64,000 bases of DNA from Clostridiales bacterium (GCA_015069495.1 SVIN01000009.1:1-64000), one strand, 5' to 3'. Numbered from the stretch's first letter, positions 23,341 to 44,249 are shown. Program-made: numbers and translations. Notes: generated from the letters alone by a model not told the origin.

Positions 23341-23348
23341 AATCGTTT

Positions 23349-24912: not shown

Positions 24913-24925
24913 AATTCCTCTTATT

Positions 24926-25636: not shown

Positions 25637-25666
25637 AATTTTATTCTCCTTTTTATCCTTAATTTA

Positions 25667-26332
25667 TTAGTAGCCCGAACCTTCGATACCTTGTACCGCT
25701 TTTACCACACGGCTGGTACCAAGTCGGGATGCGCCTGCATCCAAAAAGTTTTGCGCGTCCTGCAAGTTGGAAATACCGCCCGCCGCCTTAACAAGCACTT
25801 TTTCACCTACGTTTGCGCGCATCAATTTCACGTCTTCCAAGGTTGCCCCAGCGGTCGAAAATCCCGTCGAGGTCTTGATATAATCCGCACCCGCTTCAGT
25901 TACAATTTTACACATGCGCAATTTTTCATCTTCTGTCAAAAGACAGGTTTCAATGATGACCTTGAGGATTTTTTCACCGCAAGCCGCTTTGATTTTTTTG
26001 ATTTCATCGCATACCTGCTCATCGCAGCCTTGCTTCAAAAGCCCGATATTGATGACCATATCGATTTCGTCCGCACCCTTTGCGATTGCATCCTGTGTTT
26101 CGAAAACTTTCACCTCAGTCGTATTGTAACCGTTGGGGAACCCGATGACGGTGCAAATCTGCAATTTATCCCCTACGTATTGCTTCGCTTGCTGTACAAA
26201 GCTGGGGGGAATGCAGACGGACGCCGTTTTATATTTCATACCGTCGTCGCAGATTTTTTTAATTTGTTCCCACGTTGCCGTTTGTCCAAGCAAAGTATGG
26301 TCGCATTTCGATAAAATGTTTTGAATATCCAT
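25667..26332 (-). CDS. deoC: Deoxyribose-phosphate aldolase
   Basis: [62 protein letters not shown]. Confidence 0.95.
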
Positions 26333-26557: not shown

Positions 26558-26609
26558 GGTGGAAAAGTGTTATCCACATTATCTACACGCATTTTTAAAG
26601 TTGTCCACC
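26558..26609. promoter_or_regulatory. Cluster of DnaA-box-like 9-mers in the operon leader
   Basis: TTTTCCACC (rc, 26558-26566), TTATCCACA (26570-26578, perfect box), TTATCTACA (26579-26587), TTGTCCACC (26601-26609). Confidence 0.5.
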
Positions 26610-26632
26610 CTTTAGGGTGTGTTGAGGTTGTC

Positions 26633-27472
26633 ATGTCGATTGGTCTGCAAAAAGCGAATTTTTTTAAACGTATTTCCGCATGGTTATTCGACATTGTTAT
26701 GTGCGTGGTGTTAGCCACTGGGTGCATGGCATTAATGGCGGAACTCATCAATTACGACTTCCAGTACACGAAATTAACTGAACTCGAAACCAAATATTCC
26801 GAGTTGCAACAACCTTATTTGGACGCATACGAAGCGGAGCATGGCGTGAACTTTGACATCACGCAAGAAGCATTTGAAAAGCTTTCCGAGGAAGAAAGAG
26901 CAGCGCTCCAAGCGCACTTGAACGCGTTCAACGAAGAACTGTCCAAAAAGGAAGATATCCAAAAACAATACGCTTTGATTGAGGCGCAATCATCCGTTGT
27001 CACGACCTATACTTTTTTGATGATTAGCATCAGCCTTTTAATCGTTTTTATCGCTTGGTATTTTATCGTACCGTATATTTTACGCGACGGGCGTACTTTT
27101 GGGAAAAAGATATTTGGTTTGGCGGTTATGCGCACAAACAGCGTGAGGGTTTCCAACCCCGTCTTGTTTATCCGTTCCATCCTTGGTATGTATACGATGG
27201 AAACCATGGCGCCCATCTTCTTCTTATTGATGACTTATTTCGGTATGGGTCCTGTCGGTTTTATCGCGGCGGTGCTTGTTGCGGTTTTGGATATAGCCGT
27301 CATGATTTGCACCCCTACGCGCTCATCGATACACGATCTTTTGGCGGACACGGTTGTGGTGGATTTTTCCAGCCAACGCATCTTCGAATCGCAAGAAGCG
27401 TTAAACGAATACCTTGCTTCGCAATCACAAACTTCGGATTTTAATCAAACGCCTAAGGCGAATATTGATTGA
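26633..27472 (+). CDS. RDD family membrane protein
   Basis: ANFFKRISAWLFDIVMCVVLATG, YILRDGRTFGKKIFGLAVMRTN, TRSSIHDLLADTVVVD; start at MSIGLQ behind gttgagg RBS. Confidence 0.8.
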   Translation: MSIGLQKANFFKRISAWLFDIVMCVVLATGCMALMAELINYDFQYTKLTELETKYSELQQPYLDAYEAEHGVNFDITQEAFEKLSEEERAALQAHLNAFNEELSKKEDIQKQYALIEAQSSVVTTYTFLMISISLLIVFIAWYFIVPYILRDGRTFGKKIFGLAVMRTNSVRVSNPVLFIRSILGMYTMETMAPIFFLLMTYFGMGPVGFIAAVLVAVLDIAVMICTPTRSSIHDLLADTVVVDFSSQRIFESQEALNEYLASQSQTSDFNQTPKANID

Positions 27473-27486
27473 TCATATAATTACAT

Positions 27487-28605
27487 GTGCTTTCAGGAGG
27501 TTTTATGAAAGTAGAATTACAAAACCTGACGAAAATTTTCCCCAGCCGTAATAAAAAATCGGGTGAGGAAGTCGTTGCGGTTAACAATTTCACCTTTACC
27601 ATCCCCGATGGGAAATTGGTCGGTTTGCTCGGCCCGTCCGGTTGCGGTAAAAGTACAACCCTGTACATGATCAGCGGTTTACAACAGCCCTCTTCCGGTA
27701 AAATTTTCTTCGGCGATGAAGACGTCACCGACCTTGCACCCGAACACAGAGGGATTGGTCTCGTCTTCCAAAACTATGCTTTGTACCCCCACATGACGGT
27801 TAAGCAAAACATCTTGTTCCCCTTGCAGAATTTGCGCGGTGAGGACAGGCTGTCCAAAAATGAAATGCTTGAACGTGCGCACGAAGCGGCAAGATTGGTG
27901 CAAATCGATGAATTGATGGACAGAAAGCCCAGCGAATTGTCGGGCGGTCAGCAACAACGTGTTGCGATTGCGCGTGCGCTTGTTAAAATGCCCCGCGTAC
28001 TTTTGTTGGACGAACCTTTGTCCAACCTCGACGCGCGTTTGCGTTTGCAGACCCGTGAAGAAATCAGACGTATTCAAAAGGAAACGGGCATCACCACAGT
28101 ATTCGTAACCCACGACCAAGAAGAAGCCATGAGCATTTCCGATATGATCGTCGTTATGAAATTGGGCGTTGTACAACAGGTTGGTAAACCTCAGGAAATC
28201 TACGACAGCCCTACGAACCTTTTCGTTGCGAAATTCCTCGGTACGCCCCCCATCAACGTATTTTCGGGCCGCGTAGCAAACGAGCAATTGTACATCGGCG
28301 ATACGGCTGTATTGACGGTAAAAGGCGCGCCTGACGGCAACGTAACCGTAGGTATCCGTCCTGAAGGCTTTATCATGGATAAGAACGGCGCATTGCGTTG
28401 CAATATCTCCAACGTAGAAGTTATGGGGCGCGACGTCAGCATCGTTTCTACCCACAACAATTCTTTGAATCCTACCATTCGCTCGATTATTGATGCGGAT
28501 GAAAAACCTGATGCAGACGCAACGGTTGCAACCTTTGCATTGAAACCTCATAAGGTATTCCTCTTCGACGCAGAAACGGAAGAAAGAATTTACTTCGAGG
28601 TGTAA
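27487..28605 (+). CDS. ABC transporter ATP-binding protein (UgpC/MalK/MsmX type)
   Basis: Walker A GPSGCGKST, signature LSGGQQQRVAIARAL, Walker B VLLLDEPLSNLD, C-terminal regulatory/TOBE region VTVGIRPEGF. Confidence 0.94.
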   Translation: MLSGGFMKVELQNLTKIFPSRNKKSGEEVVAVNNFTFTIPDGKLVGLLGPSGCGKSTTLYMISGLQQPSSGKIFFGDEDVTDLAPEHRGIGLVFQNYALYPHMTVKQNILFPLQNLRGEDRLSKNEMLERAHEAARLVQIDELMDRKPSELSGGQQQRVAIARALVKMPRVLLLDEPLSNLDARLRLQTREEIRRIQKETGITTVFVTHDQEEAMSISDMIVVMKLGVVQQVGKPQEIYDSPTNLFVAKFLGTPPINVFSGRVANEQLYIGDTAVLTVKGAPDGNVTVGIRPEGFIMDKNGALRCNISNVEVMGRDVSIVSTHNNSLNPTIRSIIDADEKPDADATVATFALKPHKVFLFDAETEERIYFEV

Positions 28606-28608
28606 GTT

Positions 28609-29640
28609 ATGGCAAAAATACGTAATTTTTTCCATACCGTTTTTGTCGAATGGATTTACAACGCGTTTTGGAAGGAACTGGTTGTCAAAAAGTTGAAATT
28701 TGACAAATGGAAAGGCTGGATTTATTTATCCCCCGCCATTGTCCTTTTGTTGATTTTTACAGTATACCCTATATTTAATACGATCAGTATTGCATTTTTG
28801 GACGATTATACCCTTGCAGGCGACAGAATCGGCAAAACCTATCAATTCGGTTTTGAAAACTTCCGTTGGGTTGTACAAGATACTCTGTATTTCCTTCCCG
28901 CATTGAAGAATACCATGTTGCTTTGCTTTATCACCGTGCCTATCTCAACGTTTTTGGCGTTGTTGATTGCGGTTTGTTTGAATGCAATTAAGCCCTTGCA
29001 AAGATTTTTACAAACGATTTTCTTCTTGCCTTACGTAACCAACTCGATTGCAATCGGTATGGTATTCATGGCAATGTTCAATATCACTGGTGATACCACC
29101 GACCTTGCAAACGGTTCGGCGGATACCATCGGCGTTGTAAATATCTTCCTGCAATTCATTGGGCTTGACCCCATCAACTGGATCAGTGCTGGTTCCTCTT
29201 ATTGGAACAATATGTCTGTTGCCATTATTTATATTGTATGGAATGCACTGCCTTTTAAAATACTAATTTTGTTGGGCGGTTTGCAGAGTGTAAATAAGCA
29301 ATACTACGAAGCGGCGAAAATTGACGGCACGCCCCGTTGGAGAGTATTTACCCGTATCACGGTACCCCTTCTTTCCCCGATGATTGCTTACGTTGTTATT
29401 ACAGGCTTTATCGGCGGATTTAAAGAATATTCAAGTATCGTCGGTATCTTCGGTGACGACATGCGAGCTGCAGGCGGTCAAACCTTGCAGACCATGGTTG
29501 GGTATATCCAAAATTCGTTGGATCCCATGTCTGGTGACGGTGAAGGCGTTGCCTCGGCTGCCGCGTTGATTTTGTTTGCGATTATTTTCGTCGTAACCAT
29601 GATTAACTTGTACGTCAGCAAAAAGAAAACACATTATTAA
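28609..29640 (+). CDS. ABC transporter permease (CUT1, MalF/UgpA-like)
   Basis: EAAKIDGTPRWRVFTRITVPLLSPMI EAA motif; multiple TM segments. Confidence 0.92.
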   Translation: MAKIRNFFHTVFVEWIYNAFWKELVVKKLKFDKWKGWIYLSPAIVLLLIFTVYPIFNTISIAFLDDYTLAGDRIGKTYQFGFENFRWVVQDTLYFLPALKNTMLLCFITVPISTFLALLIAVCLNAIKPLQRFLQTIFFLPYVTNSIAIGMVFMAMFNITGDTTDLANGSADTIGVVNIFLQFIGLDPINWISAGSSYWNNMSVAIIYIVWNALPFKILILLGGLQSVNKQYYEAAKIDGTPRWRVFTRITVPLLSPMIAYVVITGFIGGFKEYSSIVGIFGDDMRAAGGQTLQTMVGYIQNSLDPMSGDGEGVASAAALILFAIIFVVTMINLYVSKKKTHY

Positions 29641-29651
29641 GGAGGTGTACG

Positions 29652-30656
29652 ATGGAAGAATTTTCGAATGAAATCGTTGAAGAAAACGAAACCCAAACCA
29701 CCTCTGAGGAAAACTCTATCGCCGCTTTGGTCGGCGGGGTTATGCAAGAACAAAACATTCAGAAGATAACCACCAAACAGCGCGTTATTAAAATTCTCGT
29801 TCAAGTTGGGTTGTATCTATTCCTTGGCGTTATGGCGCTTATCGTTTTGTTCCCCTTCTATTACATGTTGGCAATCTCCGTAAAAGAGTTCGATGAATAT
29901 TATTTAATCGGTAAAAATTATCAAAACTTAACGGAATTACAACAATTATATCCTCAAACCTTAGCATGGCATAACTATGCGGACGCATTCAAAGCAGGCG
30001 CGCTTGACCGCTTATTCCTCAACACCATGTACGTTGGGATTATCTCGACAATTTTGTCCTTGGTGATTACGGTATTGTCGGCGTTTGCGTTTGCCCGCTT
30101 AGAGTTCAAGGGAAAGAATATCTTGTTTGCAGGATTGCTTGCAACCATGATGATTCCCGGGGAATTGTTCACCATTACAAACTTTATCACTGTAAATAAA
30201 TTAGGCTGGGCATTCAGCGCTGATTGGACCGAACTGAGTAAGGCTTTGATTTTACCTTTCTTGGTTAGTATCTTCTATATCTATTTGTTAAAGCAAAACT
30301 TCCAACAAATCCCCAACGAATTGTATTTGGCGGCAAAAGTGGACGGTACAACCGATTTAAAATATCTTTGGAAAGTTATGATTCCCCTTGCTTTGCCCAC
30401 CATTATCTCCATCACAATTTTGAAAATGATGGGTGCATGGAACACTTACCTTTGGCCTAAATTGATTACCGACGAAGAAAGCCACATGTTGATTACCAAC
30501 GGTTTGCGCACCAAGTTCTCGGCGGAAGGATCTAAGCCTCAAATTCCTCAACAGATGGCGGCTGTCGCCATGGTTTCCGCACCTCTCTTCATGGTATTTA
30601 TTTTCCTTAGAAAATATATCATGAAAGGCGTATCTCGAAGCGGTATCAAAGGTTAA
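29652..30656 (+). CDS. ABC transporter permease (CUT1, MalG/UgpE-like)
   Basis: LAAKVDGTTDLKYLWKVMIPLALPTI EAA motif; multiple TM segments. Confidence 0.92.
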   Translation: MEEFSNEIVEENETQTTSEENSIAALVGGVMQEQNIQKITTKQRVIKILVQVGLYLFLGVMALIVLFPFYYMLAISVKEFDEYYLIGKNYQNLTELQQLYPQTLAWHNYADAFKAGALDRLFLNTMYVGIISTILSLVITVLSAFAFARLEFKGKNILFAGLLATMMIPGELFTITNFITVNKLGWAFSADWTELSKALILPFLVSIFYIYLLKQNFQQIPNELYLAAKVDGTTDLKYLWKVMIPLALPTIISITILKMMGAWNTYLWPKLITDEESHMLITNGLRTKFSAEGSKPQIPQQMAAVAMVSAPLFMVFIFLRKYIMKGVSRSGIKG

Positions 30657-30718: not shown

Positions 30719-32203
30719 ATGAAAAAGATGAAAAAATTCTTGTTCAGCGGCGTTGCAGCTATGTTGGCTGCAGCAAACTTAGTAGGTGCAGCTTCTTGCT
30801 TCGGCGGCGACTCCTCTAGCCAGAATAATGCAAACACGAACGTAGACGTTGTTGCTTATGATGGTAGCAAAGTAACCGTTACCTTCTACCACACGATGGG
30901 GGCAGCTTTGACCACCGTATTGAAGGAACACATTGAAGAATTCAACAAGATTTACCCCAACATCAAGATTGATCAAAAATCGCAAGGCGACTACGATACG
31001 TTGCTCAGCCTTTTGAACACCAGAATGTCCACTGGTTTGGAAAACCTTCCTACGATGGCATACTGCTATTCCGACCACGTTGCATCCTACAACGCTTCCA
31101 AGGCCGTTGTTACGCTTGACGAATACATCAATTCGACCTTGACCGTAGCAGGCACCAACGAAACCATGGGTTTGACGGAAACGCAAATCGCTAATTACGT
31201 TGATTCGTACTACGAAGAAGGTAAACAATTCGGCGACGGCAAAATGTACATGCTTCCTTTCGCAAAATCGACCGAAGTATTGTTCTACAACAAAGACTAC
31301 TTTGAAGCAAACAACTTGACCGCTCCTACCACTTGGGACGAAATGGAAGCTCTTTGCGCACGTATCATCGAAATCGATACCGCAAATAAAACCAACTGGA
31401 ACGATACGGCCAAAAAGACGAAGACCATCCCCCTTGGTTATGACAGCGAAGCAAACTGGTTCATCACGATGTGCGAACAACAGGGTTCTGGTTACACCTC
31501 GATGGAAGAAGGCAACCACTTCGTATTCAATAACGATCAAAACAAGGCGTTCGTAAAAGAATTCACCGAATGGTACGGTAAGAAATACGTAACCACGAAA
31601 GAATGCTACGGTTCGTATACTTCCGACCTCTTCACGACGCAAGGTTGCTACATGTCCATCGGTTCGACGGGCGGTACGGGTTACAACATCCCTGGTTTGG
31701 AAGAAGGTTCGGGTACGGAAGCTGCCTTTGAAGTAGGTATCGCGCCCATCCCTCAGGCAAGCACCGATCCCGCTAAGCACAAGGTTATTTCCCAAGGTCC
31801 TTCCGTATGTCTTTTCAAGAAAGACGCACAAGAAGTTGCTGCTGGTTGGTTGTTCCTTAAGTATTTGAACATGAGCGACGATTTCCAAGCAGAATTCTCG
31901 ATGACCAGCGGTTATGCTCCCGTTCTTGAAACGGTTAACAACGAAGCTTATGCAGACTTCCTTGCAAAAGCAGGTCAAGGCAACGCAAACTTGAAGGCTA
32001 CCTGCGTACTTCAAAACATCGCACAGAAAGACGCTTGCTACGTTTCCTATGCTTTCACCGGCTCCGCAAAAGCACGTGAACAAGTTGGTCTTTTGATGCA
32101 AAACGCATTTATCAATGGTTCGCAAAAGACGGGCGACGCTTTGGACGCTTATATCACCGAACAGTTTGATATTTCCATGAGAACTTTGAACAAATACAAC
32201 TAA
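30719..32203 (+). CDS. Extracellular solute-binding lipoprotein, family 1
   Basis: Signal peptide with lipobox VGAASC; KVTVTFYHTMGAALTTVLKEHIEEFNKIYPNIKID, FAKSTEVLFYNKDYFEANNLTAPTTWDEMEALC. Confidence 0.92.
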   Translation: MKKMKKFLFSGVAAMLAAANLVGAASCFGGDSSSQNNANTNVDVVAYDGSKVTVTFYHTMGAALTTVLKEHIEEFNKIYPNIKIDQKSQGDYDTLLSLLNTRMSTGLENLPTMAYCYSDHVASYNASKAVVTLDEYINSTLTVAGTNETMGLTETQIANYVDSYYEEGKQFGDGKMYMLPFAKSTEVLFYNKDYFEANNLTAPTTWDEMEALCARIIEIDTANKTNWNDTAKKTKTIPLGYDSEANWFITMCEQQGSGYTSMEEGNHFVFNNDQNKAFVKEFTEWYGKKYVTTKECYGSYTSDLFTTQGCYMSIGSTGGTGYNIPGLEEGSGTEAAFEVGIAPIPQASTDPAKHKVISQGPSVCLFKKDAQEVAAGWLFLKYLNMSDDFQAEFSMTSGYAPVLETVNNEAYADFLAKAGQGNANLKATCVLQNIAQKDACYVSYAFTGSAKAREQVGLLMQNAFINGSQKTGDALDAYITEQFDISMRTLNKYN

Positions 32204-32228: not shown

Positions 32229-33587
32229 ATGAAAAAAAGAATTTTGTCATTATTGTTATTGGCGAGTGTTGCGCTCGGCAGTTTTGCCGGGTGTAACACC
32301 CCCGAATCTTCCTCCAATGATTCGGTAGCAAGCGAATCTTCCGGCAAGGTTGAAATCGAAAAAATCGATTACGCTGGACAAGCTGTTTTGGATTTTTCTG
32401 CTGATTCGCAAACCACGGAAATCGAACGCGTAAAATCGTACATCGACGGCGATACCACCCACTTCTACGTAGAAGACGGTATCATCAAACACGAATTTTT
32501 GAAAGCAAGATACGCGGCGGTAAACACCCCCGAATCGACGGGTCAAATCGAACCTTGGGGCAAAAAGGCATCTGCTTACACCAAGGATAAATTGAAGAAT
32601 GCCACCTCTATCGTTTTGGAAACGGACGGCTCGGATTGGGAAGTAGATTCCACGGGCGAACGTTACCTCGTATGGGTTTGGTATAAACCGCAGGGTTCCG
32701 ACGTATACCGCAACTTAAACCTCGAATTGTTGCAAGAAGGTCTTGCATTGGGTTCGAGCGTTTCCGATTGCCGTTACGCAGAATTGGCAACCAATGCCTT
32801 GAACCAGGCGTCTTTGATGGAAGTGTGCGTACACTCGAACGAACAAGACCCCGATTATTTCTACGGTTCTGCTTTGGAAATCGATTTGAAAGAACTTCGT
32901 ACCAACATTGACGAATACAACGGCGCAAAGGTTGCGTTTGAAGGTATCGTATCCTACTACTCCAGCAACGGTGTATTTGTAGAAAGCTACGACGAAGCAA
33001 CCGATTTCGTTTACGGTATTTACGTATACGTTGGTTATAACTATACTTCCGATTCGAATATCCAAAACATTCTTTCGGTTGGCAACCACGTTCGTGTCGT
33101 AGGTCAATGTTCCTTCCACGAAGATTTCGGTTATCAAATCTCCGACATCAAATATCGTGCAGTTAAACCCAAAGATCCCGATAACGTACAGAAATTGAGC
33201 GACGAAAAATTCCCCGCTTATAACCCCGAAACGAACGCGGCAGATTTTAACGGCACGAAGATTGTTGAAGTCAACGAAGAAGAAAAAGCGTTCCCCTACA
33301 AGAAGCTTGCGTTGGACAGCTCAATTTCCTTTAAAAACTTGAAGGTTGTCGATATGTACACCACCAAGAAAGAAGATTCTGCAAACAAGGGCGCAATCAC
33401 GATTACCTGTCAAGTAGACGGGCAAACAATTACGGTTCGTACCGCTGTTTTGCACGATGAAAACAAAAACTTGGTAACGGAAGCTATGTTTGAAGGCAAA
33501 ACCATCGACGTAAAAGGCGTCGTAGAAGAATATGAAGGGCAATACCAAATCAAGGTATTCTCTTTGAAAGACATTACCATTCATTGA
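32229..33587 (+). CDS. Thermonuclease (SNase)-domain lipoprotein with C-terminal OB-like region
   Basis: Lipobox SFAGC; VKSYIDGDTTHFYV, KARYAAVNTPEST, PWGKKASAYTKDKL, ERYLVWVWY, NLELLQEGLAL correspond to the SNase core. Confidence 0.88.
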   Translation: MKKRILSLLLLASVALGSFAGCNTPESSSNDSVASESSGKVEIEKIDYAGQAVLDFSADSQTTEIERVKSYIDGDTTHFYVEDGIIKHEFLKARYAAVNTPESTGQIEPWGKKASAYTKDKLKNATSIVLETDGSDWEVDSTGERYLVWVWYKPQGSDVYRNLNLELLQEGLALGSSVSDCRYAELATNALNQASLMEVCVHSNEQDPDYFYGSALEIDLKELRTNIDEYNGAKVAFEGIVSYYSSNGVFVESYDEATDFVYGIYVYVGYNYTSDSNIQNILSVGNHVRVVGQCSFHEDFGYQISDIKYRAVKPKDPDNVQKLSDEKFPAYNPETNAADFNGTKIVEVNEEEKAFPYKKLALDSSISFKNLKVVDMYTTKKEDSANKGAITITCQVDGQTITVRTAVLHDENKNLVTEAMFEGKTIDVKGVVEEYEGQYQIKVFSLKDITIH

Positions 33588-33611: not shown

Positions 33612-36600
33612 ATGAACAAAAAACTACTTGCTCTTGTATTGGCTCTTAGCACGTGTCTCTCTTTGTCTAGCTGTGCATTTTTCGGCGGCAACAAAGATGA
33701 AAGCAGCTCGAATCAAACGTCGGAAGCACCTGCAACTACGTACGATTTGGATGGCGCGAAGACCCTTTTGGAATCTCGTGTAAAAACGACCAATGCAGAA
33801 TCTCGTGAAACCTACGAAGTTCCCGCTTCCATTTTGTTGGAAGACGTGACCTACACCATCGAATGGTCCGTAGACGTTGAAACGGTTAAAATCGAAAAAG
33901 ACGGCGATAAAGTGTACGTAAACGTATACGAAGCTTCCCTTTCCTTTGAAGACGTAACCTTCGTTTTGACCGCAAAAATCACCGCTCCTGACGGTTCCAC
34001 CATCGAATCGAAGATGAACCGTGTTGTTCCTAAGTTGGAACGTTTCGTACCTGCAAAGATTACGGAAAAACCTGCTGAAAACGTTGCATACAAGCTCAAC
34101 GTTTACCAAGGTAACACCCAAAAAGAAGTGTACGCTAACGGTGAAATGAAGAACACTTGGTACTTCGCTTCCACGACCGATTATGACAACGGTATCGACG
34201 TATATGCTGAACACGTAGCAACCAGCGAAACCGAATTCTACCTTTATCGTATGGTAGACGTAGAAGGCGGCGCGCAAGTCAAGGAATACATCAACGTTGT
34301 TCCCAATGGTTCGCACGTAAACGCTGTATATGGCAACCCCGATGCTGCCAACTTCCCTGATTATGAAAATTATGAAGGCGAGATGAAGACCGCTTATTAC
34401 TTTGATGAAACTTGGGCAACGGTTGCAACGGTTGTAAACGGCACGCCTTACTACTTTGGTTGCGACGGCACGTATGACACCATCGAACCTCAAAAGAATA
34501 TCGGCAACGACTACTTCATGGGCTACCTCGTAACCGAAGTTGACCGCATGAACGTAGAAGAAGCTGATAAGCTTGCACACGAAGTAACGACCTTGAACAT
34601 TGCACCTGCATTCATCGGCGGCGGTTCTTCCGCAACCTTGATTACGCACGGCGATCGTTATCCCGACGTTAAGATTTCTTGGGCTGTAAACAACGAAGCT
34701 GCTTCGATTTATAGAAACGAACTTTCCTTCAACACTGTAGAAACCGTACAAGAAGTTACCTTGACGGCTACCCTTTCGATTGGCGAAGCAACCGAAACGA
34801 AGACTCTTACTTTCAAGGTTGTTCCCAACGATACCGCTAAGATTATCGAAACGGCAAAAGCGTTCAAGTCCGGCGAAGCATTCGGTAACGACGTAACCAT
34901 GACGGGTATCGTCCTCTCTATTGATGAAGCTTACGATCCTACCTATGACAGCGTTTCCTTCACCATGTGGGTAAACGACACGAAAGTTTTGGGTTATCGT
35001 ATGAAGGGCGAAGGCGCTGACGTGCTTGCCCCTGGTTTCACCGTAACCTGCGGCGGTAAGTTCATGCTTTACAAGTCTGACCTTGAATTCAGCTTTGCTA
35101 AGATTGAAAGCTACGAAATCGGTGATGAATCCGATATTCCCGAAACGGGCGACCCCGTTGTTGACGGTACGGCTGCATCCATCCTTAACGCGCTTTACGG
35201 TTTGGCAGACGGCGAAGAACTTAAAGGTGCATTCACTTTGACCGGTAAAATCACTGCATTGGATAACTACAACAACCCTACCATCGTTGTAGAAGGCTTC
35301 GAAAATATGCCCGTTTACTGCTACAGATTGTCCGTTACGAACAAGGTTGGCGATATCCTCACCGTAACGGCAACGAGCATGAAGAACTACGGCGGTAAGT
35401 ATGAATTTATGAACTGTACGTTGGTTTCTTCCGAAGCAGGTAGTGGCACGGAAACCCCTTCCAACCCTACCTATGCAACCCCCGCAGAAATCCTTAATGC
35501 GCTTTATGCATTGGCTGATAATGAAACCGTTACGGGTGAATTCACTTTGACGGGTAAAATCACTGCATTGGATGACTACAACAACCCTACCATTGTTGTT
35601 GAAGGTTTCGAAAATATGCCCGTTTACTGCTACAGATTGCAAGTTACGAACACTATTAACGACGTTATTACCGTAACCGCAACGACCATGAAGAACTATC
35701 AAGGTAAGTATGAATTCATGAACTGTACGTTGGTTAGCGGCGACAACAACGAAGACGATGGCAACACGGATGTTAGTGCGCCTGCAGCAGACTCCACCCT
35801 TACCATCCCCGAAGCACTTGCTTACGGCGCAACTTTGACTGGCGAAACGACCGCTAAATATTATGTAAGCGGTACGATTACCGGTTTCTACCATAGCTCT
35901 AGCAACCCTACCAGCGGTTACACCTATGGTAACGTATACATCACCGATGATAACAACAACACCATCCTCGTTTATGGTTTGTACAGTGCAGACGGTTCCG
36001 TTAGATATGACGCAATGACCACCAAGCCCGTTGAAGGCGACTACATCAAAGTTTACGGTGTACTTAGCGTATACAATGGCGTTGGTCAATTCAAGAACGC
36101 TTGGTTGATTGAACACACCGCTAACGGTGGTAACGAAGGCGGCAATGATAACACCAATCCCAACGCTCCCGCAGCAGGTACCTTGTTTACTATCCCTGAA
36201 GCAATCGCTTACGGTAAGACTTTGGCTGAAAGCGCAACCTCGACCGAAAAGTTCTATGTAGCTGGTACAATTACAGCTTTCTACGGCTCCAGCGGCACTA
36301 CTTATGGTAATGTATACATCACCGATGAAAACAACAACAGCATTCTTATCTATGGTTTGTACAATGAAGACGGTTCCGTTAAATACAGCGAAATGACCAC
36401 CAAACCCGATGAAGGCGATTACATCAAAGTTTATGGCGTTATTAAGAACTACTATGGCACCCCTCAATTTGTAGACGGTTGGGTAATGGAACATACCGCA
36501 GGTGAACTTGACGTTCCTGAAATCGAAGGTGAAGCATCTGTTCTTAGCTTTGCAGATAAAGCAAATCGTACGAGCCAAACGACCAGCCAACAGGTATGGG

Positions 36601-36914
36601 AAGCAAACGGTATCAAAGTAACCAACGATAAAGCTGCAAGTACCTCTAACGTTGCAGATTACGCTAACCCTGCACGTTTCTACAAGAGCTCCTCTCTTAA
36701 GATTGAAGCAACCAGCATGAAGACAATTGTAATCGAATGCAATACGCCCGATTACGCAAACGCGCTTGCTGCATCCATCGCATCTGACGCAAACGTAACT
36801 GTAAACGCAACCGCTAAAACTGTTACCATTACGTTCACTAATGCAGTTAGCAGCTTCAGCATTGAAGCTCTTTCGGCGCAAGTTCGCGTTGATTCCATCT
36901 CTGTTTACGCATAA
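33612..36914 (+). CDS. Large OB-fold-array lipoprotein (Ig-like N-terminus, five predicted OB-like modules, C-terminal beta-domain)
   Basis: Lipobox SLSSC; two tandem FTLTGKITALD[ND]YNNPTIVVEGFENMPVYCYRL modules, two tandem YV[SA]GTIT.FY..GNVYITD[DE]NNN modules, one diverged module VTMTGIVLSI. Confidence 0.8.
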   Translation: MNKKLLALVLALSTCLSLSSCAFFGGNKDESSSNQTSEAPATTYDLDGAKTLLESRVKTTNAESRETYEVPASILLEDVTYTIEWSVDVETVKIEKDGDKVYVNVYEASLSFEDVTFVLTAKITAPDGSTIESKMNRVVPKLERFVPAKITEKPAENVAYKLNVYQGNTQKEVYANGEMKNTWYFASTTDYDNGIDVYAEHVATSETEFYLYRMVDVEGGAQVKEYINVVPNGSHVNAVYGNPDAANFPDYENYEGEMKTAYYFDETWATVATVVNGTPYYFGCDGTYDTIEPQKNIGNDYFMGYLVTEVDRMNVEEADKLAHEVTTLNIAPAFIGGGSSATLITHGDRYPDVKISWAVNNEAASIYRNELSFNTVETVQEVTLTATLSIGEATETKTLTFKVVPNDTAKIIETAKAFKSGEAFGNDVTMTGIVLSIDEAYDPTYDSVSFTMWVNDTKVLGYRMKGEGADVLAPGFTVTCGGKFMLYKSDLEFSFAKIESYEIGDESDIPETGDPVVDGTAASILNALYGLADGEELKGAFTLTGKITALDNYNNPTIVVEGFENMPVYCYRLSVTNKVGDILTVTATSMKNYGGKYEFMNCTLVSSEAGSGTETPSNPTYATPAEILNALYALADNETVTGEFTLTGKITALDDYNNPTIVVEGFENMPVYCYRLQVTNTINDVITVTATTMKNYQGKYEFMNCTLVSGDNNEDDGNTDVSAPAADSTLTIPEALAYGATLTGETTAKYYVSGTITGFYHSSSNPTSGYTYGNVYITDDNNNTILVYGLYSADGSVRYDAMTTKPVEGDYIKVYGVLSVYNGVGQFKNAWLIEHTANGGNEGGNDNTNPNAPAAGTLFTIPEAIAYGKTLAESATSTEKFYVAGTITAFYGSSGTTYGNVYITDENNNSILIYGLYNEDGSVKYSEMTTKPDEGDYIKVYGVIKNYYGTPQFVDGWVMEHTAGELDVPEIEGEASVLSFADKANRTSQTTSQQVWEANGIKVTNDKAASTSNVADYANPARFYKSSSLKIEATSMKTIVIECNTPDYANALAASIASDANVTVNATAKTVTITFTNAVSSFSIEALSAQVRVDSISVYA
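35181..35740 (+). repeat. Intragenic direct repeat, 309-bp period (type-A OB module x2)
   Basis: atccttaa[ct]gcgctttA... at 35181 and 35490, through gaactgtacgttggtt. Confidence 0.85.
35803..36500 (+). repeat. Intragenic direct repeat (type-B OB module x2)
   Basis: TIPEA[LI]AYG...GNVYITD[DE]NNN[TS]IL[VI]YGLY..DGSV at about 35803-36123 and 36191-36500. Confidence 0.85.
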
Positions 36915-36935
36915 GGATTTTTCCTTGTAAACACA

Positions 36936-36966
36936 CACCGCCCCTTGAAGGGGCGGTGCTTTTTAT
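36936..36966 (+). terminator. Rho-independent terminator
   Basis: CACCGCCCC-TTGAA-GGGGCGGTG-CTTTTTATT. Confidence 0.85.
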
Positions 36967-38398
36967 TGACATTATTTCAAATAAGTGTTATACTTTACAT
37001 ATGAACACTTTTACTCGTAAAATAAAAACTGCATGGTTGATTGCAACCGCTTTTTGCTTAACCTTTACTTCGTGCGCACATCCGCAATCTTCTGCAGATA
37101 GCTTGACTCCGTCATTCTCCCAAAGTCAATCCATCGAAGACTGCTCCGATTGCGATTCCTCTATTGAAAGCGAGGATAGCAGTTCCTCCACTGAAGAAGA
37201 CGGCATCACCGAGGAACAGGCTTACGCAGAACAAATCATGGATCAAGCGTACAATTTGAATACGGGCGATTACTTACCCAATACTTACCAATTAAGCGGT
37301 ACGGTTTCCTACATTGATATCGACTACACGGCGAAAAAAGGCGTTTGTCTGTACTTTGACATAGATGAACCGCAAGCACGCGAAATGTATTGTTACCAGT
37401 TAAAAGGCGACGGCGCGGATTTGATTGATTCGGGTTCGTATATTACCGTCAGCGGTAGAATCAAAAACTACAAGGGTATGATTGAATTTGAAAAGCCTAC
37501 GCTGATTTCCTATCAATTGGAGAACGGACAAGGCTCGCCTGACCAAAGCAACGATCCCTACAAAAATATTTCGAAAACGGAATTTTACAAGGATTATAAA
37601 CCCGCAGAAAGTAACGAGGACGCTTACTACCGCTCCTTACACGGCTTTATGTCGGGGGAATTAACCGTTCCTAATCAAGCCCCTACTCTTTCCGCCTACC
37701 GCCCCAAGCAGGGCTCTGCATATATCCGTAACGACGATACCATTTACGAAGAAGACGGCAACGCCTACGTTGTCACCGACGTATACGGCAACGAAGCTTT
37801 TACCGTTTATCGCGCAGGGGCATATATCACTTTGGAAGAAGTCGCTGCATACGTGTATGCATTCGGTACTTATCCCAAAAATTACACAACCTCGAAAAAT
37901 ACCGACCCCGATGACAGTATTTGGGATGAATATTTGCGCTTAAACCACACGGCATTTTCAGGCAATACCAGCCAATATCCCTACGAACCCGAATTGCCCA
38001 ATATCAGCGGTTGCGGCGGGACTTTGCGGTATTATGAAATGGATATCGGCACCACGGGCACGGATTGCGATCCCTCGTATCCTGCGGATATTTACAATGA
38101 CGGGAACTCCATCACCCGCGGGGCGGCGCGTATCGTATATGGTAAAACGGACCTCGATAAGGACGGCGTTTTCGAAGCGGGCGAATGGCACGTCTTCTAC
38201 ACCTACAACCATTACAACGATTTTCAAGAATATCTCAACTACGCAGGCGGTTGGGGCGAAAAATTTGGCAATATCACGGGGGGCGGCAGTATTTCCAGTA
38301 AGTACGATTACAACCCCACCGATTACGTGCCTATCCATTTCGGGGACTTACCAACCCAAGGCACACGCGCGATTTTTCAGCGTTATTTCACACGGTAA
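36956..38398 (+). CDS. Lipoprotein with OB-like N-terminal module and uncharacterised, possibly nuclease-like C-terminal domain
   Basis: Lipobox TFTSC (MNTFTRKIKTAWLIATAFCLTFTSCAH); YQLSGTVSYIDIDYTAKKGVCLYFDI...YITVSGRIKNYKGMIEFEKPTLISY; C-terminal CGGTLRYYEMDIGTTGTDCD...ITRGAARIVYGKTDLDKDGVFEAGEWHVFYTYNHYNDFQEYLN. Confidence 0.65.
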   Translation: MLFIDIISNKCYTLHMNTFTRKIKTAWLIATAFCLTFTSCAHPQSSADSLTPSFSQSQSIEDCSDCDSSIESEDSSSSTEEDGITEEQAYAEQIMDQAYNLNTGDYLPNTYQLSGTVSYIDIDYTAKKGVCLYFDIDEPQAREMYCYQLKGDGADLIDSGSYITVSGRIKNYKGMIEFEKPTLISYQLENGQGSPDQSNDPYKNISKTEFYKDYKPAESNEDAYYRSLHGFMSGELTVPNQAPTLSAYRPKQGSAYIRNDDTIYEEDGNAYVVTDVYGNEAFTVYRAGAYITLEEVAAYVYAFGTYPKNYTTSKNTDPDDSIWDEYLRLNHTAFSGNTSQYPYEPELPNISGCGGTLRYYEMDIGTTGTDCDPSYPADIYNDGNSITRGAARIVYGKTDLDKDGVFEAGEWHVFYTYNHYNDFQEYLNYAGGWGEKFGNITGGGSISSKYDYNPTDYVPIHFGDLPTQGTRAIFQRYFTR

Positions 38399-38466: not shown

Positions 38467-39186
38467 TTACTTACTGCGATATTTTTCAAACACACCCATA
38501 TCCGTACGAGTTGCCAACAAAGGTGTGACGGAAATATACCCATTGACAAGCGCAACCGTATCGCGGTCCATATCCTCAGGGCAAACGTCGGAAATGGGTT
38601 CGCCTTCCTGCACATAGATATCCCCTTCGCGGTGAATAAAGCGGTCGGAGAAATAAGGCGAACCTTGGTAGGTCATACGAATCCCTTTCGATTCGTTCGG
38701 GATATTCACGTTGAACAACGGACATTCTTTGAAGAGTTCGTTTTTCATGATATAATCGTACACTTCGTCCAAGTATTTCACCGCGATTTCCTGCCCGTCG
38801 GGGAATGCGGAAAACGCAATCGCGGGAACGTGCATGCGCGACGCCTCGAAAATCGCTCCGACCGTACCCGAATACACGATATCTGCGCCAAGGTTTACTC
38901 CACAGTTGATACCCGACAAAATAAGGTCGAATTTCTTCCCCAAACCAAGCACACCGAAACGAATACAATCGGCAGGCGTAGACGACATGGAATAGGCTTC
39001 AACACCATCCAATAAATCCACTTTTTTAATTTCTACAGGGGTAACAAAGTCGATGGCGTGGCTTTTACCGCTCTGTTCCACCTTCGGTGCGACAACCGTG
39101 ACTTCCCCTAATTTTTTTGCCCATTCGGCAAGCAGACGGATACCCTTGTTTTGAATACCGTCGTCGTTTGTAATCAATATCCTCAT
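38467..39186 (-). CDS. surE: 5'/3'-nucleotidase SurE
   Basis: MRILITNDDGIQNKGIRLLAEWA, SGKSHAIDF, LSGINCGVNLGADIVYSGTVGAIFEA. Confidence 0.93.
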   Translation of the reverse strand: MRILITNDDGIQNKGIRLLAEWAKKLGEVTVVAPKVEQSGKSHAIDFVTPVEIKKVDLLDGVEAYSMSSTPADCIRFGVLGLGKKFDLILSGINCGVNLGADIVYSGTVGAIFEASRMHVPAIAFSAFPDGQEIAVKYLDEVYDYIMKNELFKECPLFNVNIPNESKGIRMTYQGSPYFSDRFIHREGDIYVQEGEPISDVCPEDMDRDTVALVNGYISVTPLLATRTDMGVFEKYRSK

Positions 39187-40157
39187 AACCAACCCTCGTT
39201 ATTTTCTTTATAATCCTTTAACAATGCATCCGCTTCGGCAAGCAACGCCTCGGCTTCTGCTTTCGAATAGACGGTTGCGCCCGCTGCACAAGCATGCCCG
39301 CCGCCGTTGTATCTTTCCGCAAGTTCACTCACCGTCACGAAACGGGAACGCAAACGCACGCGGATTTCCGTATCTCCTTCGATAAAGGCAATCCAAATCA
39401 ACGAGCCCTTGATGCTGTCCATAAATGAAACGCACGCGCTGGCTTCTTCGTTGGAAAGGTTAAATTCTTCCTTTATCTCCTTGGTCACGAACATGGAAAC
39501 CACACCGTTTTCGCTAATGTTCATATGACTGTATACGAAGGATTTGAAGCGCAACGCTTCCACTTCTTCCAAATACAAGTTTGCGTAAATCAATTCCGTA
39601 TCAATCCCCTGATCCAAAATCAAACCTGCAAGGCGCATGGTTTCCCCCGAAACTTCACGGAAACGGAAACGCCCCGAATCGGTCACCATACCTGTATAAA
39701 TATATTTCGCCGCTTCTTGCGAGATCTTCAATTCCGCTTTAAATGCCTCGTAAAACGCCGCCACCATTTCACAAGTAGAGGAACGATGTTCTTCCACCCA
39801 TTCGTAATTCGCGTAGTTTTCCACGGGGATATGGTGGTCGATTTTTACCAGCTCTTTACAAAGCGCGTATCTTTGGTTAGAAATGCGTTTCTGCGTTGCC
39901 GTATCCAATACAATCCCCAACGCATCCGCGTATTCTTCATCGGGTAAAGCTTCGTCCTCACCGCCTAAAAACGCCAAATAATCGGAAAAATCATTATTTT
40001 GTAAATAGATTTTTTTATCGGGGTAAGTGTTTTTCAAAAGCGCTGCCAACCCTTTCGTCGAGCCGATGGCGTCGCCGTCGGGACGGAAATGGCGAAAAAT
40101 GATAATTTTGTCATATTCCTTGATTTTATCCAAAATAATTTTCATATTCTCGTTCAT
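39183..40157 (-). CDS. DHH/DHHA1 phosphoesterase (NrnA-like)
   Basis: IIFRHFRPDGDAIGSTKGLA, VKIDHHIPVENYANYEW, TGMVTDSGRFRF, GGGHACAAGATV. Confidence 0.9.
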   Translation of the reverse strand: MNENMKIILDKIKEYDKIIIFRHFRPDGDAIGSTKGLAALLKNTYPDKKIYLQNNDFSDYLAFLGGEDEALPDEEYADALGIVLDTATQKRISNQRYALCKELVKIDHHIPVENYANYEWVEEHRSSTCEMVAAFYEAFKAELKISQEAAKYIYTGMVTDSGRFRFREVSGETMRLAGLILDQGIDTELIYANLYLEEVEALRFKSFVYSHMNISENGVVSMFVTKEIKEEFNLSNEEASACVSFMDSIKGSLIWIAFIEGDTEIRVRLRSRFVTVSELAERYNGGGHACAAGATVYSKAEAEALLAEADALLKDYKENNEGWL

Positions 40158-40158
40158 A

Positions 40159-41097
40159 TCATACCTCTTTATTAAATGCATTCAGGTCCTCTAAAAGTGC
40201 CATCGCTTCTGCGCGGTCTTTGACGGATGCCCCGCACGCTTTGGCGTGACCGCCCCCGCCGTACTTCACCGCGACAGGCTGTACCGTGTGCTTGCTGGAA
40301 CGGATTTCCACCAAGACCTTATCTTCCGTTTCGGTAAAGTTCACCCAAATATCCACCCCGCGAATGTCTGCCATCGTATTGACCATCCCGCGGGAAATGG
40401 TAAAGGTATCGGCATTGTAAGATGCCAATTCCTCTTTCGTGGTGTAAATATACGCCACGCGGTAAGGGGTGAATTGGATTTTTAAAACAAATTGCGCGCG
40501 AAGCTGCATGTTGGCAAAATCGTCCGCGTACAAGTTGCCGTAGATTTCATTGGTATCAAAGCTTTGTTCCTTCAAAGCCGAAGCCAAACGGAAGGTTTTT
40601 GCCGTGGTCGAATCGTAACGGAAACGCCCCGAATCGGTCACCATACCCGTAAACAACGCCTTTGCTGAGGCGGGAGAAAGGGCTAAACCGCTTTCTAATG
40701 CGAACTCAGTTACAAGCCCGCAACAGCTTTCATACGAGGTATCCACCACTTCCAAATCCGCGATTTTTTCACTGAAGATATGGTGGTCGAATCGTACGGT
40801 TTTTTCCGCGAGTTTATAACGGTCGTCACTAATCAGCCAAGCCGAACCGCAATCGAGGATAATTGACAGCGCGCCGTTGAAAAAATCGTCTTCCACCTCG
40901 TCCATATCCGTACCGTCCATGAACGCGTAACGCCCTGCGCCGTCACCAACGGCATAGATTTCCTTGTCGGGAAAATTTTCTTTCAGCAGGCATTTCATAC
41001 CGATTTGACTGCCGAGCGCGTCCCCGTCGGGGCTGGAATGTCTATGAATCACGATTTTATCGTATTCTTTTATACATTGTAAAATTTCTTCAAACAT
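40159..41097 (-). CDS. DHH/DHHA1 phosphoesterase (NrnA-like), tandem paralog
   Basis: IVIHRHSSPDGDALGSQIGMK, VRFDHHIFSEKIADLEVVD, TGMVTDSGRFRYDS, GGGGHAKACGASV. Confidence 0.9.
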   Translation of the reverse strand: MFEEILQCIKEYDKIVIHRHSSPDGDALGSQIGMKCLLKENFPDKEIYAVGDGAGRYAFMDGTDMDEVEDDFFNGALSIILDCGSAWLISDDRYKLAEKTVRFDHHIFSEKIADLEVVDTSYESCCGLVTEFALESGLALSPASAKALFTGMVTDSGRFRYDSTTAKTFRLASALKEQSFDTNEIYGNLYADDFANMQLRAQFVLKIQFTPYRVAYIYTTKEELASYNADTFTISRGMVNTMADIRGVDIWVNFTETEDKVLVEIRSSKHTVQPVAVKYGGGGHAKACGASVKDRAEAMALLEDLNAFNKEV

Positions 41098-41105
41098 AAT
41101 CTACC

Positions 41106-43145
41106 TTACACAAAATATGCATTGCTCATTTCAATGGTTGTCTTGCCGTTGGCAACGTATTTTTTCATGACACCGCAAAGCGTTACCGTGTCGCCTATCT
41201 GCGGTTTGCTTGTCATAGAACCATAACGATTGCCATTTGCATCCCACGTGCCGAAAATATACAGTTGATTGCCGTTTTCATCCTCAATCGTCATATTGCC
41301 GTAAGAATCGGGATATTCGATGGAGATGATTTTACCTTTCACGTAATATTCCGTAGCGGTGGACTTATTATCGCCCAGCCCCGCCCCGATTGACAACAAT
41401 GTCGGGATATCGGTCAACGTTATATTGGGCATAGAAGGCGTGGAAGGATTGGACGAACTGCCTGCGCCCTGACCCCAACCGCCGTTTGCGATATAATCTG
41501 CAAGCAAATCGCGGGCATAAGTCGTATCGTCATAGAAAGCAATTTCCGTCAGGTTATTCCAATCATACAACGACGTATAACGGTCGGTCACGAGATAATA
41601 GGTCTTGTTGCTTTCAATGTTTGCCTTTACGCTTTTACCATATTCGCCGTAAGAAATGTAGTATCTATCGGGCAAATCAAAAAACCGCGAATTTAAATAT
41701 CTACCTTGAATGGAGCAAAGGACAATTTGGTTGTCGAAAGGTAATACGTTTACCAAGTCACCATAATAGATATTGCCTGCAGATAATTCGTACGGCGCGC
41801 GCGTATTCAAGAAACCGCCACCCAAAACGATGTCGTATTCATCCCCCCATTTTTCCAACGCCACTTTATAATAAAGGTCGGCTACCGTTTGACAGATTTC
41901 CGTCGAGGAACGAAGTTTATCATTTTTACCAAGCAAAACGTTTGCCTGTGAAAGTTTCTCGTCATATTTTTCCAACAAGTCTTCCACCACGGAATCGGGC
42001 GTTAAATGGGTATACGAACCCGTAGAAATAAATTCCGCCTTACCTACCGACGTCTTAGCATTTGCAAAATTGATTGTAATATTTGCATGCGATACCCCTT
42101 TATTATCGCCGCCGCCTTGCAAATGGTATACCCCGTAGGAATCCTTCACAACGTATTGTTGATGGCTGTGGCCTTCAAAAACCAAATCCACGTAGCCATT
42201 GGAAAGGGATGTGTCATAATAGGAGCCGATACTGCCGCTTCCGCCATCGTGAATCGCATAAATGATGAAGTCTGCGCCTGCATTGCGTAATTTACTCGAT
42301 TCCGTTTTCACCAAAGAAGCCAAAGCAGAACCCGTTACAAAATATACGTCCTCTACCTTATCGGCGGAAATGGACGAATAACAATCCCCCATCGCACCGA
42401 TAATACCGATTTGCACGCCGCTCATATCAATCATAACAGACGCATCGCAGTAATCAACGCGTTGATGCGTAGCATTGTCGTATACGTTGATTGCAAGGAA
42501 GGGAAATTCCGCCATAGCCGCATTGGCGATGATTGCTTCTTCCCCCCAATCGTATTCATGATTGCCAAGGGTCATCGAAACAAAATCCAACTCGTTCATC
42601 CAATCGGTGATGATATTGCCTTGCGTGAGGTTGGATTCTGATGCGCCCTGCCACATATCCCCCGCAGAAAGTAAAATTGTATTTTCGTTTTTTGCCTTTG
42701 CGTTTTTGAGATAGGTCGTCAGTTCGTCTACCCCAGGATGATTGTCTCCGTCCGTCAATTTACCATGTAAATCATTGACGCTAAAAATATCAAACGTTAC
42801 CGTTACCTTTTCACCGCAATCATCACAGTAAGCATTGTTGTCGATATCCTTGTGGACTTCTTCCGTTTCAATATCGCTAGAGGAATCCCCCGAACTATCT
42901 TCCGAGGAATCGCTTGAAGTTTCTTCCGAAGAGTTATCTATGTTATCGTCAGACGAAGAATCTTTGCTACCGCTCGACGAAGAATCGGAATCACTGTCGC
43001 TTTCTCCCGAGTTACCGCCTTCCACGGATATGGAAGAGGAACCACTGTCCGTAACGTTGGATTGCGGTATACTTATCGCCCCCCCTTCACAAGCGGATAA
43101 TACAAACGTTAAACTTAATAATATCGTTAGAAACGCCTTTTTCAT
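41106..43145 (-). CDS. 5'-nucleotidase/UshA-family lipoprotein with acidic Ser linker and C-terminal OB-fold module
   Basis: Lipobox LSAC; FDIFSVNDLHGKL, LLSAGDMWQGASESNLTQG, MTLGNHEYDWG, VFEGHSHQQY; C-terminal YYVKGKIISIEYPDSYGNMTIEDENGNQLYIFG. Confidence 0.9.
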   Translation of the reverse strand: MKKAFLTILLSLTFVLSACEGGAISIPQSNVTDSGSSSISVEGGNSGESDSDSDSSSSGSKDSSSDDNIDNSSEETSSDSSEDSSGDSSSDIETEEVHKDIDNNAYCDDCGEKVTVTFDIFSVNDLHGKLTDGDNHPGVDELTTYLKNAKAKNENTILLSAGDMWQGASESNLTQGNIITDWMNELDFVSMTLGNHEYDWGEEAIIANAAMAEFPFLAINVYDNATHQRVDYCDASVMIDMSGVQIGIIGAMGDCYSSISADKVEDVYFVTGSALASLVKTESSKLRNAGADFIIYAIHDGGSGSIGSYYDTSLSNGYVDLVFEGHSHQQYVVKDSYGVYHLQGGGDNKGVSHANITINFANAKTSVGKAEFISTGSYTHLTPDSVVEDLLEKYDEKLSQANVLLGKNDKLRSSTEICQTVADLYYKVALEKWGDEYDIVLGGGFLNTRAPYELSAGNIYYGDLVNVLPFDNQIVLCSIQGRYLNSRFFDLPDRYYISYGEYGKSVKANIESNKTYYLVTDRYTSLYDWNNLTEIAFYDDTTYARDLLADYIANGGWGQGAGSSSNPSTPSMPNITLTDIPTLLSIGAGLGDNKSTATEYYVKGKIISIEYPDSYGNMTIEDENGNQLYIFGTWDANGNRYGSMTSKPQIGDTVTLCGVMKKYVANGKTTIEMSNAYFV

Positions 43146-43277: not shown

Positions 43278-44240
43278 TTAGTAAAACACTGCCAATGCTT
43301 GTTCAGGTTGGTCGCAGACAATCACTTTTTCCGCAATCAAAACAGGCCCTTTGCCCTTATAGATGCGATGCTTTTGGAATGTAATTTTCGCTGTAACACA
43401 AATCCAATCACGTGTTTCCAACTCCATTGCAGACGGCAATACGCAGGCTACACCGCAATACTGAATATCGTCTTCACAGCAGGTCATGACGTGTCTGCCA
43501 ACCACGATATCAGTCGGTTCTAAACGTTTATCTCTTGCGACGATGCCTTTGAATTTTACCGTTTTACCAACGTATTCTTCTAAATTTTCCGTCAAATCAC
43601 GGTAGAAGAATGCATAATCCTTATCCTCAATTTCGATAATCGGTGCGTTGACGTCAAAAGGCAACGGGTCTTCAATGTCATCGAAGTCCGCTTTACCATC
43701 CACGCGCTCATACACGATATCGCATCTACGGCTGATGGCGCGCACAAGTTTATGCAGGTTCATCTTGTCCATGGTATCATCATAACGGTTGAATACGACC
43801 AACTGCGTGTCTTGGATTTTGTCAAATACAAGCTGTCGCATGTTGGCGTTATAATTGGTGAAAGTACGCGCATCAAAGAATGTCATCAATTGATTGATCA
43901 TCCAACCTTCGGGCATTGCGTTGAAAAAGTCGCCAAGTTCCCACATGCCGTTGTATTCTACCACGATACGTTCTGCACCGTGTTTTAATTGCAATGCGGA
44001 TAAAACTTCTTCCGTTAATTGGGATTTATCCTCTAAAACCTCAATCGCAACAGATTCCGCCTTCGCAAATTTGATGCTTTCATATTCCTCTTCCCCCTCT
44101 TCACAAACGAGAAGCAAAGTCTTTTCCCCTGCGGAAAAACGAGGATCTTCAAAGGTTTCTTGTATAAATTTGGTTTTGCCCGATTCTAAGAAACCCAAAA
44201 ACATGTATACGGGGGTTTCTACGGGTAATTTTTTCGCCAT
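43278..44240 (-). CDS. G3E/CobW-like GTPase fused to a DUF1980/TIGR03943-like C-terminal domain
   Basis: P-loop FLGFLESGKTKFI; VFNRYDD; C-terminal RHVMTCCEDDIQYCGVACVLP. Confidence 0.7.
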   Translation of the reverse strand: MAKKLPVETPVYMFLGFLESGKTKFIQETFEDPRFSAGEKTLLLVCEEGEEEYESIKFAKAESVAIEVLEDKSQLTEEVLSALQLKHGAERIVVEYNGMWELGDFFNAMPEGWMINQLMTFFDARTFTNYNANMRQLVFDKIQDTQLVVFNRYDDTMDKMNLHKLVRAISRRCDIVYERVDGKADFDDIEDPLPFDVNAPIIEIEDKDYAFFYRDLTENLEEYVGKTVKFKGIVARDKRLEPTDIVVGRHVMTCCEDDIQYCGVACVLPSAMELETRDWICVTAKITFQKHRIYKGKGPVLIAEKVIVCDQPEQALAVFY

Positions 44241-44249
44241 AATATCTCC

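Follow-up and report, generated by a model that had tools for sequence, protein, structure and literature searches.

Relatives, predicted folds and possible nucleic-acid role of an OB-module lipoprotein encoded behind a surface nuclease in gut Clostridia

Introduction

Gut contents are rich in DNA and RNA, and to our knowledge the consumers of these polymers are little known outside a handful of marine and mycoplasma examples. A stretch of 64,000 nucleotides from a Clostridiales bacterium (GCA_015069495.1, SVIN01000009.1:1-64000; hereafter "the window") holds a locus apparently devoted to feeding on DNA and RNA, from digestion and import to catabolism, and in its midst lies a gene for a large surface lipoprotein made of repeated modules. 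What does such a protein do there? A preliminary description of this DNA had proposed a surface nucleic-acid-binding scaffold. We followed up this proposal with profile searches, structure prediction and a comparison of related loci.

Results

Make-up of the lipoprotein

The open reading frame at 33612-36914 (+) starts with ATG and encodes a modular surface lipoprotein of 1100 amino acids, as had been described. Its parts are as follows:

33612-33674 (+), signal peptide and lipobox LSSC with Cys21 (from the sequence)
33747-34031 (+), Ig1, N-terminal Ig-like domain (aBig-type), common to the genes behind SNases of this type
34059-34547 (+), M2, 12-strand domain, probably a beta-trefoil, with 111 aligned copies among relatives
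34590-34820 (+), Ig3, second Ig-like domain (aBig_2)
34827-35117 (+), OB module A1, diverged (aa 406-502)
35163-35447 (+), OB module A2, tandem pair with A3
35475-35753 (+), OB module A3, tandem pair with A2
35778-36125 (+), OB module B1
36165-36509 (+), OB module B2
36528-36911 (+), C-terminal beta domain

Profile searches, repeats and identities recovered the five OB modules in the arrangement first reported, that is, one diverged module followed by the tandem pairs A-A and B-B. The same OB profile picked up even the diverged A1 module (E 1.4e-27). Profiles started from type A and from type B ended on the same set of about 200 domains, which places the two types as subtypes in a single OB superfamily. 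At the protein level, A2 and A3 were 82% identical and B1 and B2 were 68% identical. The intragenic DNA repeats proved real, including the 309-bp period given for type A: the type A repeat (35181/35490) extended over 246 nt with 83% identity and a spacing of 309, and the type B repeat (35911/36289) over 211 nt with 78% identity and a spacing of 378. No long direct repeats other than these two module repeats occurred at the gene. The reported resemblance of type B to the C-terminal module of the 5'-nucleotidase at 41106 was likewise recovered (35% identity, E 9.6e-14).

Neither Pfam nor NCBIfam yielded an enzyme domain for the 1100-aa protein, as the preliminary description had stated. Cohesin and lamin-tail domains were absent from the Pfam output, and a single-sequence search gave no PDB match. 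Against PF01336, the whole protein scored 26.1 bits, compared with a gathering cut-off of 27, and its C-terminal half alone scored 27.2; 16 out of 57 family members matched this entry. Ig3 stayed under the Pfam cut-off for aBig_2 in the window protein and reached 2e-20 in relatives. The C-terminal beta domain is rare in the family: under a strict profile threshold, 10 proteins yielded 13 copies, whole or partial; an iterated profile had drifted onto the OB modules (195 matches). On the opposite strand, an open frame of 1104 codons (33624-36938, -) spans the whole gene and is probably a codon-usage effect rather than a gene.

Predicted folds and structural neighbours

We built AlphaFold2 models from alignments of relatives' fragments in two pieces, aa 22-505 (pLDDT 92.4, pTM 0.82) and aa 618-1100 (pLDDT 90.5, pTM 0.47). 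The latter combination indicates that the domains are sure and the links between them flexible. A2 lay outside both models and is represented by its 82%-identical twin A3. The OB modules are predicted to be five-stranded OB barrels. In a Foldseek search against the PDB, the modelled OB half gave its top matches to p204 HINab-dsDNA (2.0e-6) and the Oxytricha telomere-end-binding protein-DNA complex (2e-4), followed by IFI16 HIN and Teb1 and, lower down, by lysyl-tRNA synthetases, Stn1/Ten1 and RPA. Judged from the model, the best PDB matches of this half are thus nucleic-acid-binding OBs; the TM-scores were low because several flexible domains were compared together. The OB profile found RPA2 first (2.4e-4; 0.0076 with an OB-only profile) and then STN1. 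The models, the unbiased PDB search and the RPA2 profile match therefore agreed on the OB fold that had been assigned. One family member matched CBM65_1 at 1.8e-4.

The N half matched AbnA arabinanase, cadherins, the surface glycan-binding protein (SGBP) SGBP-B and the SusE-like BT4661, and we read these matches, those to SGBP-B and BT4661 included, as coming through the Ig domains only. The N-terminal segments had been described as Ig-like. Two Ig-like domains were indeed present; by contrast, aa 150-312 formed a separate domain, M2, with 12 strands in the AlphaFold2 model and a position between the Ig domains. The best PDB match of the M2 profile, although weak (E 0.034), was a designed beta-trefoil, making the trefoil its likely fold; M2 is probably a beta-trefoil. 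The C-terminal domain, which had been called a beta-domain, was predicted to have a beta-rich fold with one helix.

Conserved residues and charge of the OB modules

Aligned OB columns showed a Tyr at 93% and an Asn at 71% in the presumed L45 loop, and a second Tyr at 82% in the presumed third strand. An Arg conserved in type A (63% of all modules), part of the motif CYRL, was missing from type B; one conserved Tyr belongs to the motif KNY. The conserved tyrosines could stack bases and could equally stack sugars. OB folds in the PDB are mostly nucleic-acid binders, and the fold is also able to bind sugars and proteins. The OB modules carried a mean net charge of -4.4, with 6% of them positive, and the whole protein one of -76. 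As the enzymes encoded nearby, SNase, RNase and 5'-nucleotidase, were equally acidic, net charge does not decide against binding.

Gene neighbourhood

The genes and signals around the lipoprotein gene are as follows:

22039-26332 (-), pyrimidine nucleoside phosphorylase, DeoB, purine nucleoside phosphorylase and DeoC
26567-27472 (+), RDD-family membrane protein
27487-28605 (+), ABC ATPase
28609-30656 (+), two ABC permeases, UgpA/UgpE-like
30719-32203 (+), substrate-binding lipoprotein, SBP_bac_8
32229-33587 (+), SNase lipoprotein with a C-terminal OB module
36936-36958 (+), strong terminator-like intrinsic hairpin (10 bp stem, 8 GC) directly 3' of the modular lipoprotein gene
36966-36994 (+), promoter-like TTGACA-17-TATACT, upstream of the RNase gene
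37001-38398 (+), barnase-like RNase lipoprotein (weak PF00545) with an N-terminal OB module
38467-39192 (-), SurE-like 5'/3'-nucleotidase, named from the motif MRILITNDDG alone
39183-41097 (-), two NrnA-like DHH/DHHA1 oligonucleases
41106-43145 (-), secreted 5'-nucleotidase with a C-terminal type-B OB module

The modular lipoprotein gene follows the SNase gene after 24 bp and is the last of the ABC-importer run. The genes for the SurE-like protein, the NrnA pair and the 5'-nucleotidase converge on this operon and the Deo and phosphorylase genes diverge from it, so that nucleic-acid catabolism genes flank the lipoprotein on both sides. The SNase (C-terminus), the RNase (N-terminus) and the 5'-nucleotidase (C-terminus) each contained a single module of this OB superfamily. 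R94, E102 and R145 of the window SNase were invariant among 13 relatives; we take them to be the catalytic Arg/Glu/Arg of staphylococcal nuclease. The two NrnA-like genes had no visible signal peptides, and they are kept as a side-by-side pair in many relatives.

The downstream RNase gave weak matches only (PF00545, E 0.003; barnase, E 0.41), and we rejected a firm barnase identity in favour of the term barnase-like. Its listed GTG start overlaps the terminator and promoter (36956-37001), and translation more likely begins with the ATG at 37001. In locus L060 (4887-7595, +), a 902-aa protein fuses a 5'-nucleotidase to a barnase-like RNase and contains an OB module. Farther along the window, 43278-45422 (-) encodes two consecutive CobW-type GTPases, one of them fused to a DUF1980 C-terminal domain.

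Fixed position and reshuffled modules among relatives

An SNase profile scan of named genomes returned 288 relatives, of which we compared the best 80, nearly all from Clostridia MAGs and mostly from ruminant guts. In 79 of these 80 other loci, a protein beginning with Ig1 came next after the SNase. Its start lay no more than 450 nt behind the SNase stop in 77 out of 80 and within 850 nt in two more; the last contig stops after 118 nt. We therefore defined the family by position and the N-terminal Ig1 domain. The window protein, a lipoprotein directly behind the SNase with Ig1 first, belongs to it.

Behind Ig1, the region was reshuffled, with 46 architectures among the 69 complete proteins from the best 80 of 288 loci. 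These 69 relatives ranged from 387 to 2201 aa in length, with a coefficient of variation of 0.48 compared with 0.03 for the SNase. OB modules occurred in 60 out of 69 and trefoils in 43 out of 69. No OB module was detected in the remaining 9, which include a paralogue in the same genome and most of which carry trefoils instead; the OB array is thus not the defining feature of the family.

The nearest relative among the best 80 was L061 (SNase 83% identical), whose architecture, ITIOOOTOI, differs from the ITIOOOOOC of the window protein. L061 holds a single type-A module of the A2/A3 kind, 77-78% identical to A2 and A3 of the window. Given this single module and the different module order, the A duplication has roughly the same young age as that species split. 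The recent duplication proposed earlier thus held for the A pair and failed for the B pair, which is older or exchanged, since B1 was nearer to a B module of L042 (74%) than to B2 (68%).

A second SBP-SNase-modular lipoprotein-RNase run was found in the same genome (L010, contig C46, 3925-11714). Its lipoprotein has four trefoils and no OB module, and Opp-type ABC ATPases adjoin the run. In L048 (7958-9328, -), a 457-aa lipoprotein consists of an Ig1-type N-terminus and the OB-containing C-terminal part of the SNase, and has lost the SNase catalytic residues; from its sequence, it looks like a recombinant of SNase and modular lipoprotein.

OB modules across the genus

Among 57 genomes of the genus, 16 had the SNase and 20 had OB modules. 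OB modules were present in 16 out of 16 SNase-positive and 4 out of 41 SNase-negative genomes (Fisher exact test, 8e-11, ignoring kinship and genome gaps), a co-occurrence that follows in part from the OB module present on the SNase. Genus-wide, 48 out of 91 OB matches lay within 15 kb of an SNase gene and 43 farther away or on other contigs; part of the latter were due to contig breaks within the same locus, and others were on surface proteins, for example in L011 and L012. In L011 (811-14574, same genome) and L055, which lie outside the nucleic-acid locus, genes for OB-bearing surface proteins neighbour those for a GH2 enzyme, MFS transporter and tyrosine phosphatase, in a conserved cluster that encodes giant surface proteins.

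Discussion

A possible capture protein for nucleic acid

We consider it somewhat probable that the modular lipoprotein serves a nucleic-acid-utilisation locus by capturing nucleic acid, without catalytic activity of its own, in the manner of the SGBPs of polysaccharide loci and with a polynucleotide in place of the polysaccharide. The operon, the position behind the SNase in 79 of the best 80 loci and the co-occurrence fit a nucleic-acid role, and the surface nucleic-acid-binding scaffold first proposed is thereby supported in part; the docking sense of the word scaffold found no direct support. The capture role is further favoured by the nucleic-acid binders among the structural and profile neighbours of the OB modules, by the modules common to SNase, RNase and 5'-nucleotidase, by the second such run in the genome and by the precedents of ExeM and the Mycoplasma operon discussed below. 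Against it speak the strong acidity, the absence of the type-A Arg from type B, the relatives without OB modules, and the OB modules found beside GH2 and MFS genes (L011) and elsewhere; OB folds are also able to bind sugars and proteins, and nucleic-acid binders make up most of those in the PDB.

In such a locus, the lipid-anchored protein would be held off the membrane by its Ig-like domains, whose fold comes from the model and whose use as a stalk is our proposal. Through the conserved tyrosines and the L45 loop, the OB modules would hold extracellular DNA and/or RNA, most probably where the strands are single or fray, perhaps together with the trefoil and C-terminal domains; avidity would arise from several weak modules in series. 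The held polymer would be cut by the co-anchored SNase and barnase-like RNase, putative nucleases that each bear an OB module. The SBP/ABC importer may take up mono- or oligonucleotides, to be broken down by the NrnA pair, apparently cytoplasmic, the SurE-like phosphatase, the nucleoside phosphorylases, DeoB and DeoC. The lack of visible signal peptides on the NrnA-like pair suggests that short oligonucleotides, and not nucleosides alone, enter the cell, which is the boldest inference drawn here.

Carbohydrate binding is the main rival. In this account, the protein is a surface adhesin or glycan binder whose trefoil, beta-sandwich and OB modules bind carbohydrates of host mucus, plant fibre or neighbouring cells and so bring the nucleases to DNA-rich surfaces. 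Trefoils and OB folds commonly bind sugars; trefoils are frequent among the relatives (43/69) and 9 of 69 have no detected OB module; the modules are acidic, some stand next to genes for GH2 and MFS proteins elsewhere in this genome, and one member matches CBM65_1. The N half matches SGBP-B and BT4661 as well, though through its Ig domains only. We nevertheless regard this account as rather unlikely, given that the gene stands behind the SNase in 79 of the best 80 loci, that OB modules are fused to the nuclease and nucleotidase enzymes of the locus, and that the structural and profile neighbours of the OB modules are nucleic-acid binders.

The occurrence of the module once per enzyme and in series on the lipoprotein could also be read as a docking scaffold, in which homotypic or heterotypic OB contacts gather SNase, RNase and 5'-nucleotidase into one surface complex like a cellulosome; the variable copy number on the scaffold, with the enzymes constant, agrees with this. 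We think it improbable, however, as Pfam gave no cohesin or dockerin match, OB-less relatives exist, and the SNase and RNase carry their own lipoprotein signals, which make docking unnecessary for anchoring. Finally, 46 architectures among 69 complete proteins and the contrast in length variation with the SNase would suit a variable surface coat shuffled under phage or immune escape, with its place beside the nuclease due to operon history. The strict SNase linkage over many lineages, the modules common to the locus enzymes and the restriction of long direct repeats at the gene to the two module repeats make this very unlikely.

Extending the capture reading, we tentatively suggest, with clearly less confidence than for the protein itself, that gut Clostridia have polynucleotide-utilisation loci, a counterpart of polysaccharide loci, in which fast-reshuffling OB/trefoil/Ig lipoproteins capture DNA or RNA for co-anchored nucleases, an ABC importer takes in short oligonucleotides and an NrnA pair finishes them in the cytoplasm. 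If true, many uncultured ruminant-gut Clostridia would treat nucleic acid like a fibre polysaccharide, with a dedicated non-enzymatic surface protein, and the locus would offer testable parts in the capture protein, the nucleases anchored beside it and a candidate importer of nucleotides or oligonucleotides. A constant SNase beside a freely reshuffled neighbour also raises the question of which substrate variety the module variety matches.

Comparison with known systems

Open-literature searches found no description of the modular lipoprotein family or of such a gut locus, which does not prove that there is none. The core SBP-SNase-ABC arrangement is already known from Mycoplasma agalactiae, and import of nucleic acid precursors has been proposed for the SNase-P80-ABC operon of M. 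agalactiae and the M. hominis group (PMC3585158). In both systems, an SNase lipoprotein lies by a sugar-type SBP lipoprotein, an ABC ATPase and two permeases (PMC3585158); this likeness holds for the window operon and not for the 1100-aa protein. Unlike the window, the Mycoplasma operon as described there has no large modular lipoprotein, and no linked barnase-like RNase, NrnA pair, SurE-like or Deo genes are reported for it (PMC3585158).

The DNA-degradation loci of Ca. Izemoplasmatales likewise combine extracellular nucleases, an ABC importer and a large surface protein in one locus; that protein, of 1,049 aa, has nucleic-acid-binding, nuclease and lamin-tail domains (PMC8289736). By contrast, the window protein has no nuclease or lamin-tail domain in Pfam searches up to E=1, and those loci have phosphate-transport genes (PMC8289736), the window Deo and NrnA genes. 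The nuclease activity of ExeM from Shewanella cannot do without a region that holds two putative OB folds (PMC6085458). ExeM (PMC6085458) and Bacillus YhcR are secreted proteins whose OB-fold regions serve nucleic acid processing, as proposed here, although they unite OB and nuclease in one polypeptide, whereas the window OB array is a separate protein without a nuclease domain. KPN03535 of Klebsiella, an OB-fold lipoprotein suggested to bind DNA, is by description also a secreted OB-fold lipoprotein (PMC2954213); it is a single small OB protein and shares no common locus with the window protein. Cellulosome scaffoldins differ in their cohesin modules, which Pfam did not find in the window protein.

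The SGBPs of polysaccharide loci resemble the window protein in being lipoproteins with Ig-like spacers and non-catalytic distal modules and in being encoded alongside an importer and enzymes that break down a polymer. The window locus differs from theirs in that it lacks SusC/SusD, has enzymes predicted to cut nucleic acid and uses other binding modules. Because its importer is of the ABC type and a SusC/SusD pair is absent, we do not file the window protein as an SGBP, although it may act like one.
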